DNA from: Tychonema litorale BBK16
Lineage (GTDB): Bacteria > Cyanobacteriota > Cyanobacteriia > Cyanobacteriales > Microcoleaceae
Assembly: GCF_021648855.1 (NCBI RefSeq)
Contig: NZ_JAKJHX010000030.1
Coordinates: forward strand, 1 to 40,485
Reading direction: 5' to 3'
DNA length: 40,485 nt
Under the pieces are notes generated by a model. It did no database searches and was not told the DNA's origin. It saw only the letters and a program-made list of their open reading frames with translations. Both the position numbers and the translations under genes were made by a program. Below, piece by piece: positions 11,832 through 18,676 of the stretch. How positions within the stretch are numbered: position 1 is the stretch's first letter; the number at the start of each line of letters is the position of its first letter.

Positions 11832-14800
11832 ATGTCAACAGCCAGTCAGACACCGCAAGTAAGCGTAATTATACCTGCATATAATGGCGATCGCTACATC
11901 GTGCAAGCGGTGGATAGCGTGCTATCCCAAACTTTTACTGATTTGGAAATTATCGTTGTAGACGATGGTTCGACAGATGGGACACATCAAGTATTAGAGC
12001 CTTATCTTGACAGAATTCGCTACATTTATCAAGAAAACCAAGGAGTAGCAGCGGGCCGGAATCGAGGAATTCAAGAATCCAAAGGTAATTTAATTGCCTT
12101 TTTAGATCAAGATGACTTTTTTTTGCCAGATAAGTTAGCAGCGCAAGTAGCACTATTTCGCTCATCACCTTCATTAGGAATTGTCAATAGTGGCTGGCGT
12201 TTAGTTAACGAGCAAGGAGATGCAATTTCTGATATTAAACCTTGGGAATATTTCCCAAACTTAGATTTGGAAACATGGATAGTCCAGATGCCCGTACTTC
12301 CTAGTGCGATGATGTTTTCGCGAAAATGGTTAGAACTTGTAGGGAGATTTAATTCTGAGTTTGATTCGGTAGACGATTCAGATTTAGTAATCCGTTTAGC
12401 ATTGTTAGGCTGCGAATCTGCTTGGTTATCACAGGTCACAGTCTGTTATCGCCAACATGACAAAAATGTGTCTATTCAAAAAGCTATAAAACAAGCAAAT
12501 CTATTTATTAAATTAAAACAAGAATTTTTCAACAAACCAGACTTGCCACAGCACATTCGCGAGTTAAAAAATCCTGCTTTCTACGAGGCATTGACATGGA
12601 TGGCATGGAAATTGTACTATAGCGGGTATCAGGTGGAAGCGGTTGAGTATTATCAAAAATCTTTCTGCTATACTCCTTACTCTCCTACAAAAACTGTAAT
12701 AGATTGGATAAATCGTTTGGTCGCTATTTCAAAAGCTTACGGATTGACCTTTGATATCCAATCTTTAAGAAACTTATCAGAATGGAAACAATTAATGTCT
12801 AGCATCCTTCCCCAAAAAACAGTAAAAGTCAGCGTAATTATCCCGGCATATAATTGCGATCGCTACATTGTTCAAGCCATAGAAAGCGTGTTTAATCAAA
12901 CTTACAAAAACTGGGAAATTATTGTCGTAGATGACGGATCTACAGACAATATTCGCCAAATACTAGAGCCATATAGTGATTTAATTCAGTATATTTATCA
13001 GGAAAACCAAGGGGCAGCAATAGCTCGAAATAATGCTTGTAAACTAGCAAAAGGGGAATTTTTAGCTTTCCTGGATGGAGACGACTTTTTTCTGCCAGAA
13101 AAACTAGAAAAACAAATTGCTTGTTTTGAGGCTGATCCATCTTTAGATATGCTACAGAATGGTTGGTTAATCGTCGATAAAAACGGCAAAGACCTCTATC
13201 CAGCCATGCCTTGGAACGAAGCACCAAAATTAGATTTAGAGGCATTTGTGATACACAAATCGGTACGTCCCAGCGCCATGATGTTGCGGCGCGAGTGGTG
13301 GGAACGCCTGGGAGGATTTGACCCTCGCTTTCCGCCAACTGAAGATTTAGATTTTGCCTTGCGTTTAGCTTTAAAAGGCTGCAAATCAGTTTGGTTGAAA
13401 GAGATATTAACCTGCTATCGTCAGCACGATAGCAATCTTATGGCGAGTGGTTCCAAAGTAATGAAAAGTATGGAAATTGTGATGGAGCAATTTTTCGCAC
13501 GACTAGACTTACCTCAGCACATCCGAGACTTGAAACAGGCAGAACGTTACAAATGTTTAGTCTGGATAGCATGGCGGATGTACTGCGATGGACATTTAGC
13601 AGAGATGGTTGAGTGTTTGGAGAAATCTCTGCATTACACTCCTTATACAGGCACGGAAACTGTTTTTAAATGGTTGGAAACTTTTAGAGTTTCTTCCCAA
13701 GAATATGGCGTTCCATTTGATTCTTATGCCTTAACTAATTTAAAAGAGTGGCAAGACATCGTAGTCATAGCTGTCAACAATCCTTATCAATTTCAATCTG
13801 CACAAAGTTCTATTTATAGCCAGTCGGCAGGGCGTGTACTCCTGTACGCAGAAGACCACGGAGTAGGTGGTTTGGCTCAGTTTAACCACTCGCTGATGTG
13901 TAAGTTAGCAGCCGATGGCTACCAAGTTATTAGCGTTCAAAGTCAAACCTCTAACCCTTTAATCACTGAACAAAAAAGCCTAGGTATCGAACATATTTGG
14001 CTAGAGTTCGACACGATGAAAGAGTTTTTACGAATTGCTTACAATTTGGGCGATGCTGAAAAGATTTATGCTCAGTCTCGACCAGATTTAATTATATTTA
14101 GTGATGGTTGGCCGATGGCAAATTTTGCGGCTAAACAAGTTGCTATTAAGCAAAATATACCATACATAATTACTCTCGGTTATATCGATCGCACTTATGA
14201 AACATTTAATCGTGGCGATCAGATTCCCTATTTTGATGCAGTCTCCTATCAGTATGACTTAGCCAAGGCAACAGTAGCAGTTTCACACGAAAACTTAAAC
14301 TTGTTCAGAAGTCTGTTTAAAGCGCCTCTAGAACGGGGGAAAGTAATCTATTATGGTAGACCTAATACTTATTTTGAACCACCGAATCTTTCAACTCGCC
14401 AACGCTTGCGTCAAGAACAAGGAATCCCCGAAGATGCTGTTATTTGTTTCACGGCGGCGAGATTGACTCCAATTAAAGGATATCAGTATCAATTACAGGC
14501 GATCGCACAACTCAAACAGTTGCCAATTTGGTCACAACTCTACTTCGTTTGGGCTGGCCCCGGTTCTGCAACTCACGACAATATGGAACCCGAATTGAGA
14601 GAAACTGTTAGCAAATTGGGAGTAAACGAACAGGTGAAATTCTTGGGACAGCGGTGGGATATTGCCGATTGGCTTGATGCCAGCGATATCTTTATTTTAC
14701 CTTCCGAAGCAGAGGGGATGCCACTAGCAATTATGGAAGCAATGGCGAAAGGATTGCCAGTAATTGCCACAGCAGTCAGCGGCATTCCCGAAGAGTTGGG

Positions 14801-15338
14801 AGACACAGGAAAGTTGCTACCAGATCCTAAAATAGACCCAGAAGGAACAGTCAAAGAGTTGGTGAAAATGGTGGAAATATGGGCAGAAAATTCCGAATTG
14901 CGACGACTTGCAGGACAAGGGTGTAAAGCGCGAGCTCAAGAACTATTCAAAGAAGAACGAATGCTGCTGGAATATGTAGAAATAATTGAACAGGAACTTG
15001 CAAATGATGAGAAAAGAGACAGTTTTCCTATTAGCCCGAAAGTTCAAAAGCAGATACAGCAAGTGGATAAGTTTCTCAAATACTATTATTTAGTATGGAA
15101 AGCTTGGGATGCTTGCAATCGCGGGGATCTGTCCGAGATGGTTAAGCATTTGCAATCATCTTGGGCTTGCACACCATTGTTTACCACAGAAACTATCTTG
15201 AGTTGGGTGAATATTTTTGCAATTTCATCTTCAGAAAAGGGCGTTACGCTTGATACTTGTACCCTAATTAACTCAGAAGAATGGAAACAATTTATGGAAT
15301 CAATACAGAGTTTTGAAGTTATTTCATCTGTTAGTTAA
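11832..15338 (+). CDS. Three-domain glycosyltransferase: GT2-GT2-GT4 fusion with repeated helical modules
   Basis: The 1168-residue protein fuses three glycosyltransferase domains. Two are GT-A, family 2: the first starts at residue 10 (VSVIIPAYNGDRY, VVDDGSTD at D44/D45, DQD at 92-94), the second near 333 (VSVIIPAYNCDRY, VVDDGSTD, DGD). The third, about 667-1060, is GT-B family 4, with GVGGLAQFNHSL, AARLTPIKGYQYQ and the donor-binding SEAEGMPLAIMEAMAKG. After each catalytic domain comes a similar helical segment of about 75 residues (about 251-327, 573-648 and 1085-1158) with the pattern (L)VWxAW, YTPY/CTPL, TET(I/V) and (S/K)EWKQ. The two GT2 units are clearly a tandem duplication, since DNA identity is visible around their starts. 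It is probably cytoplasmic or membrane-peripheral and builds a surface polysaccharide. Neighbours GH39-like glycosidase and rfbF support that role; substrates cannot be told. Confidence 0.9.
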   Translation: MSTASQTPQVSVIIPAYNGDRYIVQAVDSVLSQTFTDLEIIVVDDGSTDGTHQVLEPYLDRIRYIYQENQGVAAGRNRGIQESKGNLIAFLDQDDFFLPDKLAAQVALFRSSPSLGIVNSGWRLVNEQGDAISDIKPWEYFPNLDLETWIVQMPVLPSAMMFSRKWLELVGRFNSEFDSVDDSDLVIRLALLGCESAWLSQVTVCYRQHDKNVSIQKAIKQANLFIKLKQEFFNKPDLPQHIRELKNPAFYEALTWMAWKLYYSGYQVEAVEYYQKSFCYTPYSPTKTVIDWINRLVAISKAYGLTFDIQSLRNLSEWKQLMSSILPQKTVKVSVIIPAYNCDRYIVQAIESVFNQTYKNWEIIVVDDGSTDNIRQILEPYSDLIQYIYQENQGAAIARNNACKLAKGEFLAFLDGDDFFLPEKLEKQIACFEADPSLDMLQNGWLIVDKNGKDLYPAMPWNEAPKLDLEAFVIHKSVRPSAMMLRREWWERLGGFDPRFPPTEDLDFALRLALKGCKSVWLKEILTCYRQHDSNLMASGSKVMKSMEIVMEQFFARLDLPQHIRDLKQAERYKCLVWIAWRMYCDGHLAEMVECLEKSLHYTPYTGTETVFKWLETFRVSSQEYGVPFDSYALTNLKEWQDIVVIAVNNPYQFQSAQSSIYSQSAGRVLLYAEDHGVGGLAQFNHSLMCKLAADGYQVISVQSQTSNPLITEQKSLGIEHIWLEFDTMKEFLRIAYNLGDAEKIYAQSRPDLIIFSDGWPMANFAAKQVAIKQNIPYIITLGYIDRTYETFNRGDQIPYFDAVSYQYDLAKATVAVSHENLNLFRSLFKAPLERGKVIYYGRPNTYFEPPNLSTRQRLRQEQGIPEDAVICFTAARLTPIKGYQYQLQAIAQLKQLPIWSQLYFVWAGPGSATHDNMEPELRETVSKLGVNEQVKFLGQRWDIADWLDASDIFILPSEAEGMPLAIMEAMAKGLPVIATAVSGIPEELGDTGKLLPDPKIDPEGTVKELVKMVEIWAENSELRRLAGQGCKARAQELFKEERMLLEYVEIIEQELANDEKRDSFPISPKVQKQIQQVDKFLKYYYLVWKAWDACNRGDLSEMVKHLQSSWACTPLFTTETILSWVNIFAISSSEKGVTLDTCTLINSEEWKQFMESIQSFEVISSVS

Positions 15339-15471: not shown

Positions 15472-16794
15472 ATGCAATTTACATTCAAGTTCCAGTCTCT
15501 TAATAAATTACTCCCAATTTGTTTAGGTATTGTCACTCTGCTGTTAATTATCTATTTGGGGCAGCAAAGATCGATCGCATTTGCGCGATCGAACGTTACA
15601 GTAGATTTCGGGATTCCAGCAGCCACAACATCCATGAGTGGCATCCTCCACGGAATCGACCCTACCAAGCCCCCAGATAACTTGGTAAAACCCTTACAGC
15701 CCAAACTTTGGCGGGCGGGGAGACTCGATATTTACGATCGCGTAATCGCCAGCGGATCTGAGTTTCAACTGTTAGTCAGCGACTTGTGGGGCTACGGCAG
15801 TAATCCTAAAGGTTGGCCCTATCAAAATTACCCTGCATGGGAAGCATTCGTGCGGCAATTAGCTCAACAAAATAAAGGCAAAAAAATTATTTGGGATGTC
15901 TGGAATGAACCAGATTTAAGAAACCCTTTTTGGAATGGTAGCAGAGAACAATTCTTTGAAACTTACAAAAGAGCTTACAAAATTCTGCGACAAGAATTAG
16001 GGCCATCAGCAATGATTGGTGGACCGAGTATTACTAACTACAATAAAGAATATCTCACCGCTTTTTTGAATTATTGCAAGGCGAACAAATTAGAAGTGAA
16101 TTTTCTGGCTTGGCATGAACTCAACGATAGCATGATTTTATTGATTGACGATCATGTGATTGATGCTAAACGCAATTTTCAAAGTGCTTATTATAAAGAA
16201 TTGAAACTGCAAAAAATTTATGTCAATGAAATTGTGGGCAACTTAGCACAATATCAACCAGGGGAAATTTTAGGTTATTTGTATAACTTGGAATATGCAA
16301 AAGCCGACGGTGCTTGCAGAGCTTGTTGGGACACAAGAGGGACAAATAAGGTGAGCAATTGCTTCAATAATACGCTGAGTGGGATGGTAACTCCCAATAC
16401 TTTTGAGCCGAGAGCGGCTTGGTGGGCTTATAAAGCTTATGCTGATGGAGTTAATTCACGGGTATTGAGTCGATCGGATAACGAGTATGTTGCCTCTTTA
16501 GCCAGCAAGTCAAATCCTGAAGGCAAGGCACAGGTGCTTTTGGGTTATTTTGATCGCGATTATTCATCAGTAACATCTGTCACTTTAAACCTCAAAAATT
16601 TGACACAGTTAGGTATCCAAAAAGGTCAAAAAACTCGTCTCAAATTAGAGAAAATTCCTAACAATCAAGAGGGTGCTGTGCGAAAGCTGATTACTATCAA
16701 AGAAGAAAGTTTGTCTGTCAATGGTGACAGCTTAAATTATATCATTCCAAATTTTAATGTACATGAAGGATACCTGCTGACGATTAGCAAATGA
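15472..16794 (+). CDS. GH39-like glycoside hydrolase, exported or membrane-anchored
   Basis: The 440-residue protein has a basic N terminus followed by a hydrophobic stretch (residues 13-31, LLPICLGIVTLLLIIYLG), so it is either exported or anchored by this helix. The body reads as a clan GH-A (beta/alpha)8 hydrolase of the GH39 type. The acid/base glutamate is E146 in WDVWNEPD and the likely nucleophile is E253 in IYVNEIVG, at the end of strands 4 and 7. Known GH39 members act on beta-xylosides or alpha-L-iduronides, and in other bacteria related proteins trim exopolysaccharide during export; the substrate here is unknown. It follows the fusion glycosyltransferase after 133 bases on the same strand, which fits trimming or release of the polymer made by that enzyme. 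A distinct C-terminal beta domain (about 350-440) is expected from the sequence pattern. Confidence 0.8.
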   Translation: MQFTFKFQSLNKLLPICLGIVTLLLIIYLGQQRSIAFARSNVTVDFGIPAATTSMSGILHGIDPTKPPDNLVKPLQPKLWRAGRLDIYDRVIASGSEFQLLVSDLWGYGSNPKGWPYQNYPAWEAFVRQLAQQNKGKKIIWDVWNEPDLRNPFWNGSREQFFETYKRAYKILRQELGPSAMIGGPSITNYNKEYLTAFLNYCKANKLEVNFLAWHELNDSMILLIDDHVIDAKRNFQSAYYKELKLQKIYVNEIVGNLAQYQPGEILGYLYNLEYAKADGACRACWDTRGTNKVSNCFNNTLSGMVTPNTFEPRAAWWAYKAYADGVNSRVLSRSDNEYVASLASKSNPEGKAQVLLGYFDRDYSSVTSVTLNLKNLTQLGIQKGQKTRLKLEKIPNNQEGAVRKLITIKEESLSVNGDSLNYIIPNFNVHEGYLLTISK

Positions 16795-16841
16795 TATCAA
16801 TTTCGGCAGCATCGGAATTATTAGTAGCCGAAATGAGGAGA

Positions 16842-16892
16842 CGGCAGTGCCGTTTCCCTACCACGGTTAATTGTAGGGAAACGGCACTGCTG
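16842..16892. terminator. 20-bp inverted repeat between convergent genes, possible bidirectional terminator
   Basis: CGGCAGTGCCGTTTCCCTAC (16842-16861) is repeated in inverse orientation at 16873-16892 with one mismatch and an 11-base loop. It lies between the ends of the GH39-like gene and the immunity gene. There is no clean T-run, so a terminator role is an inference. One arm recurs at 27721-27748, so it is also a dispersed repeat. Confidence 0.5.
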
Positions 16893-16902
16893 TGTCCTGA
16901 AT

Positions 16903-17202
16903 TTAGCTGGGATTTGTCAAAGTTTTTTGCACCGATTCTAACCATTCTCTGACTGTTTGATTGTCTGCTTCCGGGTTGTAGTAACACCCCAATTCATCGA
17001 GGATGAATGTTGCTAAGTCGGCTGGTGCGATCGGCATTTCTAGCAGTTTATTGAGTTCTGATAATGCAGCTTCAACACTTTCGGGCAATTCGCTATTACG
17101 GTAATTTTCCACTACTTCGCTGGAAGTATCAGCTTCTAGTGTCCAGTCTTGATGAAAGTAGGAACTAAAAAATTGCGTTAAATTAGGAAATTGATTGTTC
17201 AT
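16903..17202 (-). CDS. CdiI-type immunity protein for the RNase A-like toxin
   Basis: This small acidic protein of 99 residues has no signal peptide and so should stay in the cytoplasm. Its N terminus, with the FPNLTQFFSSYFHQDW segment, matches the pattern of the immunity proteins found beside contact-dependent inhibition toxins (CdiI_2-like, a family typically starting with F..L..FF..YFHQDW). The remaining sequence is helical and acidic (PESVEAALSELNKLL, ADLATFILDELG), suitable for binding a basic nuclease. Its ATG overlaps the stop of the toxin gene by four bases (ATGA), indicating translational coupling. The expected role is to bind and block the RNase domain made by this cell or delivered by kin. 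Family assignment is from recalled motifs and not from a search. Confidence 0.72.
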   Translation of the reverse strand: MNNQFPNLTQFFSSYFHQDWTLEADTSSEVVENYRNSELPESVEAALSELNKLLEMPIAPADLATFILDELGCYYNPEADNQTVREWLESVQKTLTNPS

Positions 17203-17729
17203 TCGGGATAAGCTGTGAGAATAAAGTATCCGGGAGATAATTTGATGCTACGCTGGAGGATGATTTTCACGCGAGATGCTGAAGTTGCTTTAGAGGTACC
17301 GCGCCTGAGAGTAATGCCAATTACTTTATGGGTATCGTATTTGATTGTATAACGATTACTTTCTTTTTTTACCCAGGAGTCGATCGCACTTTTCTTCTCA
17401 TTCATTGCTTCAGCAATCGCTGATTCGGCGACGGAACGATAGGTAAACGAAGATGCACCAGAAATTCTCTTCTCGTCGGCGAGTCGCTGTGCTAGTTGTG
17501 CTTCTGTTTTACCAACGTGTTTCTCTAAAGTGTGTCCTCCTGCGGCTTCGTGAAAGTCCAGTCCGCCACCTGGTATCCCCGGTGCAAAAGCTATGGTGGT
17601 TTGTGCCGGTTGACTTGATACATACTGCGCCGAAACAGGACTTATTCCAGGTTGAAATAAGACTATTATTGAGGCAATCGCGCACAGGATACTTAAAAAT
17701 TTTGTCCATCGATCGAGTTGAGTTTTCAT
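17199..17729 (-). CDS. Secreted RNase A-like toxin (CdiA-CT RNase A domain family)
   Basis: The 176-residue protein has a typical Sec signal peptide (residues 1-34: basic start, hydrophobic LSILCAIASIIVLF, cleavage expected after VSA34). The mature part of about 140 residues matches the bacterial RNase A-like toxin domain first described at the C terminus of CdiA: GGGLDFHEAAGGHTLEKHVG, a basic middle, and the C-terminal strand GYFILTAYPE. From memory, the Yersinia kristensenii toxin uses His175, Arg186, Thr276 and Tyr278. Here H71, R82, T172 and Y174 have exactly the same spacings (11, 90 and 2 residues). Cysteines are absent from the mature part, as in that bacterial branch. It is not joined to a CdiA filament; the domain is exported on its own. 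It is the first gene of a two-gene unit with the immunity protein and is divergent from rfbF. A TATACT-like element on the minus strand at 17756-17761 could be its -10 box. Confidence 0.75.
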   Translation of the reverse strand: MKTQLDRWTKFLSILCAIASIIVLFQPGISPVSAQYVSSQPAQTTIAFAPGIPGGGLDFHEAAGGHTLEKHVGKTEAQLAQRLADEKRISGASSFTYRSVAESAIAEAMNEKKSAIDSWVKKESNRYTIKYDTHKVIGITLRRGTSKATSASRVKIILQRSIKLSPGYFILTAYPE

Positions 17730-17899: not shown

Positions 17900-18676
17900 A
17901 TGCAAGTAGTTATCCTAGCCGGCGGTCTTGGTACTCGTCTCAGAGAAGAAACTGAATTTCGTCCTAAACCCTTAGTTGATGTCGGCGGATATCCGATTCT
18001 TTGGCACATCATGAAGATATATGCACACTACAACTTCCAAGACTTTATTGTGTGCTTGGGTTATCGGGGTAACATGATTAAAGAATATTTCCTTAATTAT
18101 GAAGCGATGAACAATGACTTTACGATCTGTTTAGGTCGCAAAAATAGCATCACTTATCAGGAGGAACATCGAGAACAAAATTTTAATGTTACCCTAGCTG
18201 AAACTGGTGCGGAAAGTATGACGGGAGGGCGGGTAAAACGGATCGAAAAATATATCGATCGCGATAATTTCATGGTGACATACGGTGATGGAGTTGCTGA
18301 TGTCAATATTGAAGAATTACTGGCTTTTCACAAAGCTCATGGTAAGCTGGCAACTGTGACGACGTTTCGCCCTATTTCTAGATTTGGAATTTTAGATGTA
18401 GATAGTGAAGGGCGCGTACTTGAATTTGCTGAGAAACCTCAAATAGATGGTTGGATTAGTGTTGGATATATGATATTGAATCGTCGGGTTTTTGAGTATT
18501 TGGATGGAGATGATTGTATCTTGGAACAGGAGCCGATGCAGCGTTTGGCAGCAGACGGAGAGTTAATGGCTTATCGTCATGAGGGATTTTTCTTTGCGAT
18601 GGATACTTTTCGAGAATACAAGTATTTAAATGAGCTTTGGGATCGAGGAGAAGCTCCTTGGAAGGTGTGGGAATAG
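17900..18676 (+). CDS. rfbF: Glucose-1-phosphate cytidylyltransferase
   Basis: The 258-residue protein makes CDP-glucose from CTP and alpha-D-glucose-1-phosphate, the first step towards CDP-linked 3,6-dideoxyhexoses and other CDP-sugars of O-antigen and exopolysaccharide. The nucleotidyltransferase signature is at the N terminus (VVILAGGLGTRLREET, then FRPKPLVDVG with the catalytic lysine), followed by GYRGNMIKEYF and VTYGDGVAD, all typical of RfbF. Full length and cytosolic. The usual partners rfbG (CDP-glucose 4,6-dehydratase) and rfbH do not follow; the next gene is an acyl-CoA dehydrogenase homologue. It is preceded by an AT-rich region shared with the divergent toxin gene, with no clear Shine-Dalgarno sequence before the ATG. 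Confidence 0.95.
   Translation: MQVVILAGGLGTRLREETEFRPKPLVDVGGYPILWHIMKIYAHYNFQDFIVCLGYRGNMIKEYFLNYEAMNNDFTICLGRKNSITYQEEHREQNFNVTLAETGAESMTGGRVKRIEKYIDRDNFMVTYGDGVADVNIEELLAFHKAHGKLATVTTFRPISRFGILDVDSEGRVLEFAEKPQIDGWISVGYMILNRRVFEYLDGDDCILEQEPMQRLAADGELMAYRHEGFFFAMDTFREYKYLNELWDRGEAPWKVWE

Follow-up and report, generated by a model that had tools for sequence, protein, structure and literature searches.

Nearly all genomes examined in the genus Microcoleus carry, as a single-copy and mostly fixed-site trait, two overlapping genes encoding a predicted exported RNase A-type protein (PF18431) and a CdiI_2-type partner (PF18593). On balance, we regard the two as a barnase/barstar-like pair, in which an exported RNase would be matched by a cytosolic inhibitor that protects the producer. 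The pair was studied in the window, the whole stretch of 40,485 nucleotides that was analysed. A first-pass annotation of the letters had read two genes at 16903-17729, overlapping at an ATGA and lying between a GH39-like gene and rfbF. Both frames are found there, on the minus strand, the overlap is present at 17199-17202, and the two neighbours score above the cut-offs of their models (Pfam GH39, TIGR02623). The features, in window positions, are as follows.

17199..17729, minus strand: RNase A-type protein, predicted exported, 176 aa, PF18431 (profile match, sequence match, fold prediction)
17628..17729, minus strand: predicted Sec signal peptide, residues 1-34, predicted cleavage after V-S-A (32-34) (sequence, relatives)
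17541..17627, minus strand: linker, residues 35-63, ending in a conserved PGGGLDFHEAA stretch (alignments)
17205..17537, minus strand: RNase A-type catalytic domain, residues 65-175
17517..17519, minus strand: His71 codon (His175 of the Y. kristensenii toxin)
17484..17486, minus strand: Arg82 codon (Arg186 of the Y. kristensenii toxin)
17214..17216, minus strand: Thr172 codon (Thr276 of the Y. kristensenii toxin)
17208..17210, minus strand: Tyr174 codon (Tyr278 of the Y. kristensenii toxin)
17199..17202, minus strand: ATGA start/stop overlap of the RNase and inhibitor genes
16903..17202, minus strand: CdiI_2-type protein, predicted inhibitor, 99 aa, without signal peptide
15472..16794, plus strand: GH39-type flanking gene, conserved neighbour (Pfam GH39 above cut-off)
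17900..18676, plus strand: rfbF, glucose-1-phosphate cytidylyltransferase, conserved neighbour, divergent (TIGR02623, 339.2 bits, cut-off 300.25)

A promoter scan performed no better than on shuffles, a terminator scan found none, and no Rfam family reached the gathering threshold. The stretch between the GH39 and inhibitor genes, which converge, contains an imperfect palindrome (16826-16908), a member of a repeat family that has 97 matches in the genome, many places being counted on both strands because the repeat is palindromic; it corresponds to no Rfam family. On its other side, the GH39 gene adjoins a gene (11832-15338) whose 1168-aa product has two stretches of family-2 glycosyltransferase type and, after them, a part of group-1/family-4 glycosyltransferase type.

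Enzyme, leader and partner

The 176-aa protein matched PF18431 over the full domain length (E 3e-32, 112.2 bits, cut-off 27; Pfam), and the 99-aa protein matched PF18593 over nearly its full length (E 4.7e-26, 91.8 bits, cut-off 26.7; Pfam). Both matches are well beyond chance; the profile search that the first-pass annotation had proposed as a check thus places both proteins far above cut-off and upholds the enzyme family and the CdiI-type partner it had named. By sequence, the nearest solved relatives of the two are the two members of one complex, CdiA-CT/CdiI of Yersinia kristensenii (PDB 5E3E), the toxin for the RNase (5.9e-19) and its immunity partner for the inhibitor (8.9e-7). The predicted folds agree, that of the RNase matching CdiA-CT, with 35-36% identity in structural matches, and that of the inhibitor matching 5e3e_A, as expected of a PF18593 CdiI_2 member.

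Positions 71, 82, 172 and 174 of the RNase are H, R, T and Y. The active site of the Y. kristensenii toxin consists of H175, R186, T276 and Y278 according to excerpts of PMC9086364, so that the intervals (11, 90 and 2) are identical in the two proteins, confirming both the residues and the Yersinia numbering given in the earlier reading. Conservation was counted over the first 81 of 112 matches, the window protein included: the column of His71 contained His in 80 and Gln in one, that of Arg82 Arg in all 81, that of Thr172 Thr in 77, Ser in one and a gap in three, and that of Tyr174 Tyr in 77 and a gap in four. Alignment A1, of the enzyme, comprised 58 of the 112 matches and the window protein; alignment A2, of the inhibitor, comprised 34 of the 120 matches listed, six locus translations and the window protein.

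The N-terminus of the window RNase has classical n-, h- and c-regions that end in V-S-A at residues 32-34, followed by a short linker and the domain; the fold model has low confidence at residues 23-48. A V/A/T-x-A/G cleavage motif occurred in 79 of the 80 relatives with letters at this place (81 rows, the first 81 of 112 matches), and hydropathy revealed a strongly hydrophobic leader core in 78 of 80 relatives (the first 80 of 112 matches) versus none of five leaderless cyanobacterial relatives. No lipobox is present, as the predicted cleavage site V-S-A|Q is without Cys; the mature part of the window RNase is free of cysteine, and 79 of 81 relatives (the first 81 of 112 matches) have none beyond residue 38. 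Leader and motif support the export proposed in the first-pass annotation, and the predicted product of Sec export and cleavage after residue 34 is a basic, cysteine-free enzyme of 142 residues. In a diderm with thylakoids, Sec export may end in the periplasm or the thylakoid lumen rather than outside the cell.

Five other cyanobacterial genomes have stand-alone PF18431 genes that lack a leader and are paired with CdiI_2, one of these genomes having tandem copies; the starts of the leaderless genes are uncertain, several open frames having only GTG or TTG starts. Export is therefore not a fixed property of the pair, and such relatives would suit a toxin-antitoxin or programmed-death module whose leader is a membrane anchor or a thylakoid targeting signal. 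For the window pair we judge such a module very improbable, because the cleavage-like motif is conserved as counted above and because the pair is nearly fixed at one site, which is atypical of mobile toxin-antitoxin modules.

The mean pI was 10.1 for mature enzymes (n=80) and 4.2 for inhibitors (n=116). A basic enzyme and an acidic partner would fit tight electrostatic binding, and by analogy with CdiI in the Y. kristensenii complex the inhibitor may cover His71, Thr172 and Tyr174. The gene overlap probably couples translation of the two proteins.

Distribution, site and selection

PF18431 was present in one copy each in 28 of 29 genomes of the genus and in all 25 that are at least 90% complete and at most 5% contaminated; counts of PF18593 were the same (28/29 and 25/25). 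The genus is taken to be Microcoleus, and the set also includes genomes under the names Tychonema, Lyngbya, Phorm 6, Oscillatoriales, Oscillatoriaceae and Richelia. In the 29th genome (G022, 87% complete), the contig with GH39 ends inside the inhibitor gene, whose last 23 codons stand at the contig edge; a true loss was rejected, and an assembly gap is the best reading. The ATGA overlap was kept in 27 of the 28 genomes. In the other, G008, RNase and inhibitor genes are on separate contigs, and loss of the inhibitor was likewise rejected, as both coding sequences are complete and each has a partial IS605-type OrfB gene next to it where the contig ends (L073:94-1098 beside the RNase, L074:8859-9032 beside the inhibitor; Pfam OrfB_IS605 and HTH_OrfB_IS605). 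We infer a single IS605-type element between the two genes. A second OrfB_IS605 gene is located at L073:1860-2747.

Elsewhere in cyanobacteria the PF18431 domain is sporadic. It occurred in 30 of 243 genomes of the order sample, nine of them from the genus, and in 12 of 386 genomes of the phylum sample, six of them from the genus.

Among 24 named loci, which overlap strongly with the 28 genus loci and are not independent of them, GH39 and rfbF both adjoined the pair in 19, one of them in three and neither in two; at least one was thus kept in 22. In the three loci with one flanking gene, the other side runs into a contig end. In a genome of another genus of the family (G082), the GH39-rfbF interval holds an intact 318-aa Pfam GDP_Man_Dehyd ORF (L100:3304-4260) in place of the pair; this ORF fills the interval, and a degraded remnant of the RNase pair there was rejected.

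The absence of a CdiA carrier, claimed in the first-pass annotation, was borne out: a Pfam scan of the 142 predicted mature residues found no other domain or carrier, PF18431 alone being above cut-off. The genome of the window has this single PF18431 match together with nine TPS-domain and three ShlB matches, all on other contigs and none bearing PF18431. In a CDI system the toxin forms the terminal part of a TPS exoprotein and CdiB adjoins, and neither was found at the window locus; at a polymorphic toxin locus, related strains carry different toxin domains in the same place, whereas the same domain is present in 28 of 29 genomes here. With no carrier, no adjoining CdiB and no type switching, membership in either class was rejected.

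CDI toxins are usually regarded as swappable, strain-specific weapons, and a genus-wide, single-copy, mostly fixed-site pair speaks against such a use. This bears on the role that had been assigned to the pair, a diffusible or vesicle-borne antibacterial weapon in which the exported RNase would enter neighbouring bacteria that are not kin while the CdiI-type protein confers immunity. The RNase A and CdiI families behind that reading stood, and both are toxin/immunity families; the gene order is toxin then immunity, and the partner is present in every genus genome that has the RNase. A CDI-like, strain-specific use is made less likely by the distribution. No carrier or other domain accompanies the predicted mature enzyme, and the lack of type switching, with the same family usually at one site, would leave congeners wholly or partly immune; we therefore think the weapon rather unlikely.

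Purifying selection acts on the pair, and the cleavage motif and active-site residues of the enzyme are conserved. Median dN/dS was 0.32 for the RNase, 0.26 for the inhibitor and 0.10 for rfbF, and mean dS was 0.45, 0.51 and 0.52, respectively; dN/dS at about three times that of rfbF means that some relaxed or changing selection is possible. A functionless, decaying orphan CDI cassette might be suspected from a family known from CDI toxins with no carrier attached. It is disfavoured by the purifying selection (median dN/dS 0.26-0.32) and genus-wide retention, the active-site residues are kept, and 27 of 28 genomes have an intact RNase gene, that of the remaining one (G005) being truncated only because its contig ends there, which makes decay extremely unlikely.

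A recent arrival in the window genome was rejected as well, since the pair occurs throughout the genus and its dS values are close to the rfbF value. Sequences of rfbF came from 24 of the 28 genus genomes, and 24 were used for tree comparison. Distances of RNase, inhibitor and rfbF correlated (r 0.78-0.80, 24 genomes), with none of 2000 permutations as high, and only 5-7 of 21 splits were common to any two of the three trees. With so few splits in common, either exchange between members of the genus or the weak signal of such short genes is likely; a fair reading is that the pair has long resided in the genus and has undergone some exchange.

Relatives and comparable systems

A family tree of 52 selected rows (without L054, and without L085, in which the trimming motif was not found) separated four groups: the Microcoleus proteins, leaderless cyanobacterial proteins with an adjoining CdiI_2 gene, a second set of exported cyanobacterial proteins, and lipoprotein-like proteins; its deep branches are unresolved. 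Short PF18431 proteins with signal-peptide-like or lipobox-like starts occurred in several branches. The first-pass annotation had taken the free exported form to be exceptional, which does not hold: carrier-free, signal-like PF18431 proteins in several branches mean that the architecture is not unique to the window, and an NCBI lipoprotein model and Ribocin of Pseudomonas aeruginosa (excerpts of PMC13189344) contradict the claim as well.

In genome G086, the leaderless PF18431/CdiI_2 pair stands in tandem copies (L075:6085-7877), one RNase copy being interrupted. Genes of the second exported clade, in other cyanobacteria, are followed by an acidic gene of about 98 aa without Pfam family (L080:7764-8069, L081:2992-3285, L082:7371-7667 and relatives). 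It was downstream of the RNase in six of seven readable genomes and missing in L084; an eighth locus, L083, is cut by a contig end. Weaker relatives lie directly downstream of PF18431 in G043 and G187, and in a search of 243 genomes the gene type adjoined PF18431 in eight of the 11 genomes having such a gene. A profile comparison of this gene with CdiI_2 was not significant (probability 0.3%), and it is a candidate uncatalogued immunity family.

The closest known system is CdiA-CT/CdiI of Y. kristensenii, which has a homologous enzyme domain with the same active-site residues and a homologous partner, both predicted folds matching. It differs in that the Yersinia domain ends a CdiA exoprotein, whereas the window domain directly follows a predicted signal peptide, and in that the window pair is constant in its genus. 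Barnase/barstar shares the architecture and the presumed logic, namely a small exported RNase and a cytosolic inhibitor with neither carrier nor polymorphism, but belongs to unrelated sequence families; no barnase or barstar Pfam family was found in either window protein at E up to 1, only PF18431 and PF18593 being above cut-off. The NCBIfam model NF041883, RNase A-like domain-containing lipoprotein, describes another stand-alone exported PF18431-type protein and matches the window RNase with E 1.1e-15; at 58 bits versus a cut-off of 200, and without a lipobox, the window RNase is not a member. YxiD/YxxD of Bacillus subtilis (9v8i) differs in that YxiD is an LXG (type VII) effector, as given in excerpts of PMC12700104.

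Ribocin (RbcN) of P. aeruginosa is, according to excerpts of PMC13189344, a stand-alone protein with a signal peptide, an RNase A-type fold and a His/Thr/Tyr active site, and is 15% identical to the Y. kristensenii toxin. It differs from the window RNase in acting on eukaryotic ribosomes, and the excerpted text mentions no inhibitor partner. The window RNase might, comparably, be directed at eukaryotic grazers, given that Ribocin cleaves animal ribosomes and needs its His/Thr/Tyr set for the effect (PMC13189344, excerpts) and that an enzyme constant across the genus fits a standing defence. A conserved cytosolic partner, however, suggests harm to the bacterial cytosol too, while Ribocin does not cleave bacterial H69 (same excerpts), and we find an anti-eukaryote RNase improbable.

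NCBI already names the two proteins "RNase A-like domain-containing protein" and "contact-dependent growth inhibition system immunity protein". Literature searches and term look-ups in two Microcoleus genome papers, available as excerpts (PMC10923798, PMC8546630), found no paper on the pair; one of the two mentions toxin-antitoxin genes in the flexible genome.

Proposed role of the pair

As a barnase/barstar-like pair, the two proteins would act in sequence. The RNase precursor arises in the cytosol, a compartment in which the enzyme could do harm; translation coupled via the overlap would supply inhibitor with every precursor, and this partner would hold any folded enzyme inactive in the cytosol. 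Export would then separate the enzyme from the inhibitor, and RNA could be cleaved outside the cytosol, whether it belongs to competitors or grazers or lies free in the mat. That the pair is constant across the genus counts against competition between strains as the main use, and is compatible both with RNA turnover and with defence against unrelated bacteria or grazers.

We tentatively propose, as a serious possibility, that a CDI-type toxin/immunity pair was domesticated in the Microcoleus lineage, becoming a standing exported RNase and its cytosolic inhibitor, which would serve the whole genus in RNA turnover or standing mat defence, not in strain-against-strain conflict. If true, RNase A-superfamily parts would here make up a bacterial counterpart both to barnase/barstar and to the vertebrate RNase A/ribonuclease-inhibitor pair. 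Both parts were already known, as were free-standing exported RNase A-type proteins (the NCBI lipoprotein model and P. aeruginosa Ribocin); what is new is that a carrier-free enzyme with predicted export is retained together with a CdiI partner as a constant pair across the genus, along with the domestication hypothesis that results.

A module known from bacterial warfare is thus likely now a standing trait of the genus. A pair that is found throughout a genus in single copy, mostly at one site and constrained by purifying selection would clearly exemplify how such a module can take on a permanent role. With two small genes and no carrier, it offers a simple system in which to ask of what use an exported RNase is to these filamentous cyanobacteria, and why the enzyme is always accompanied by its partner.
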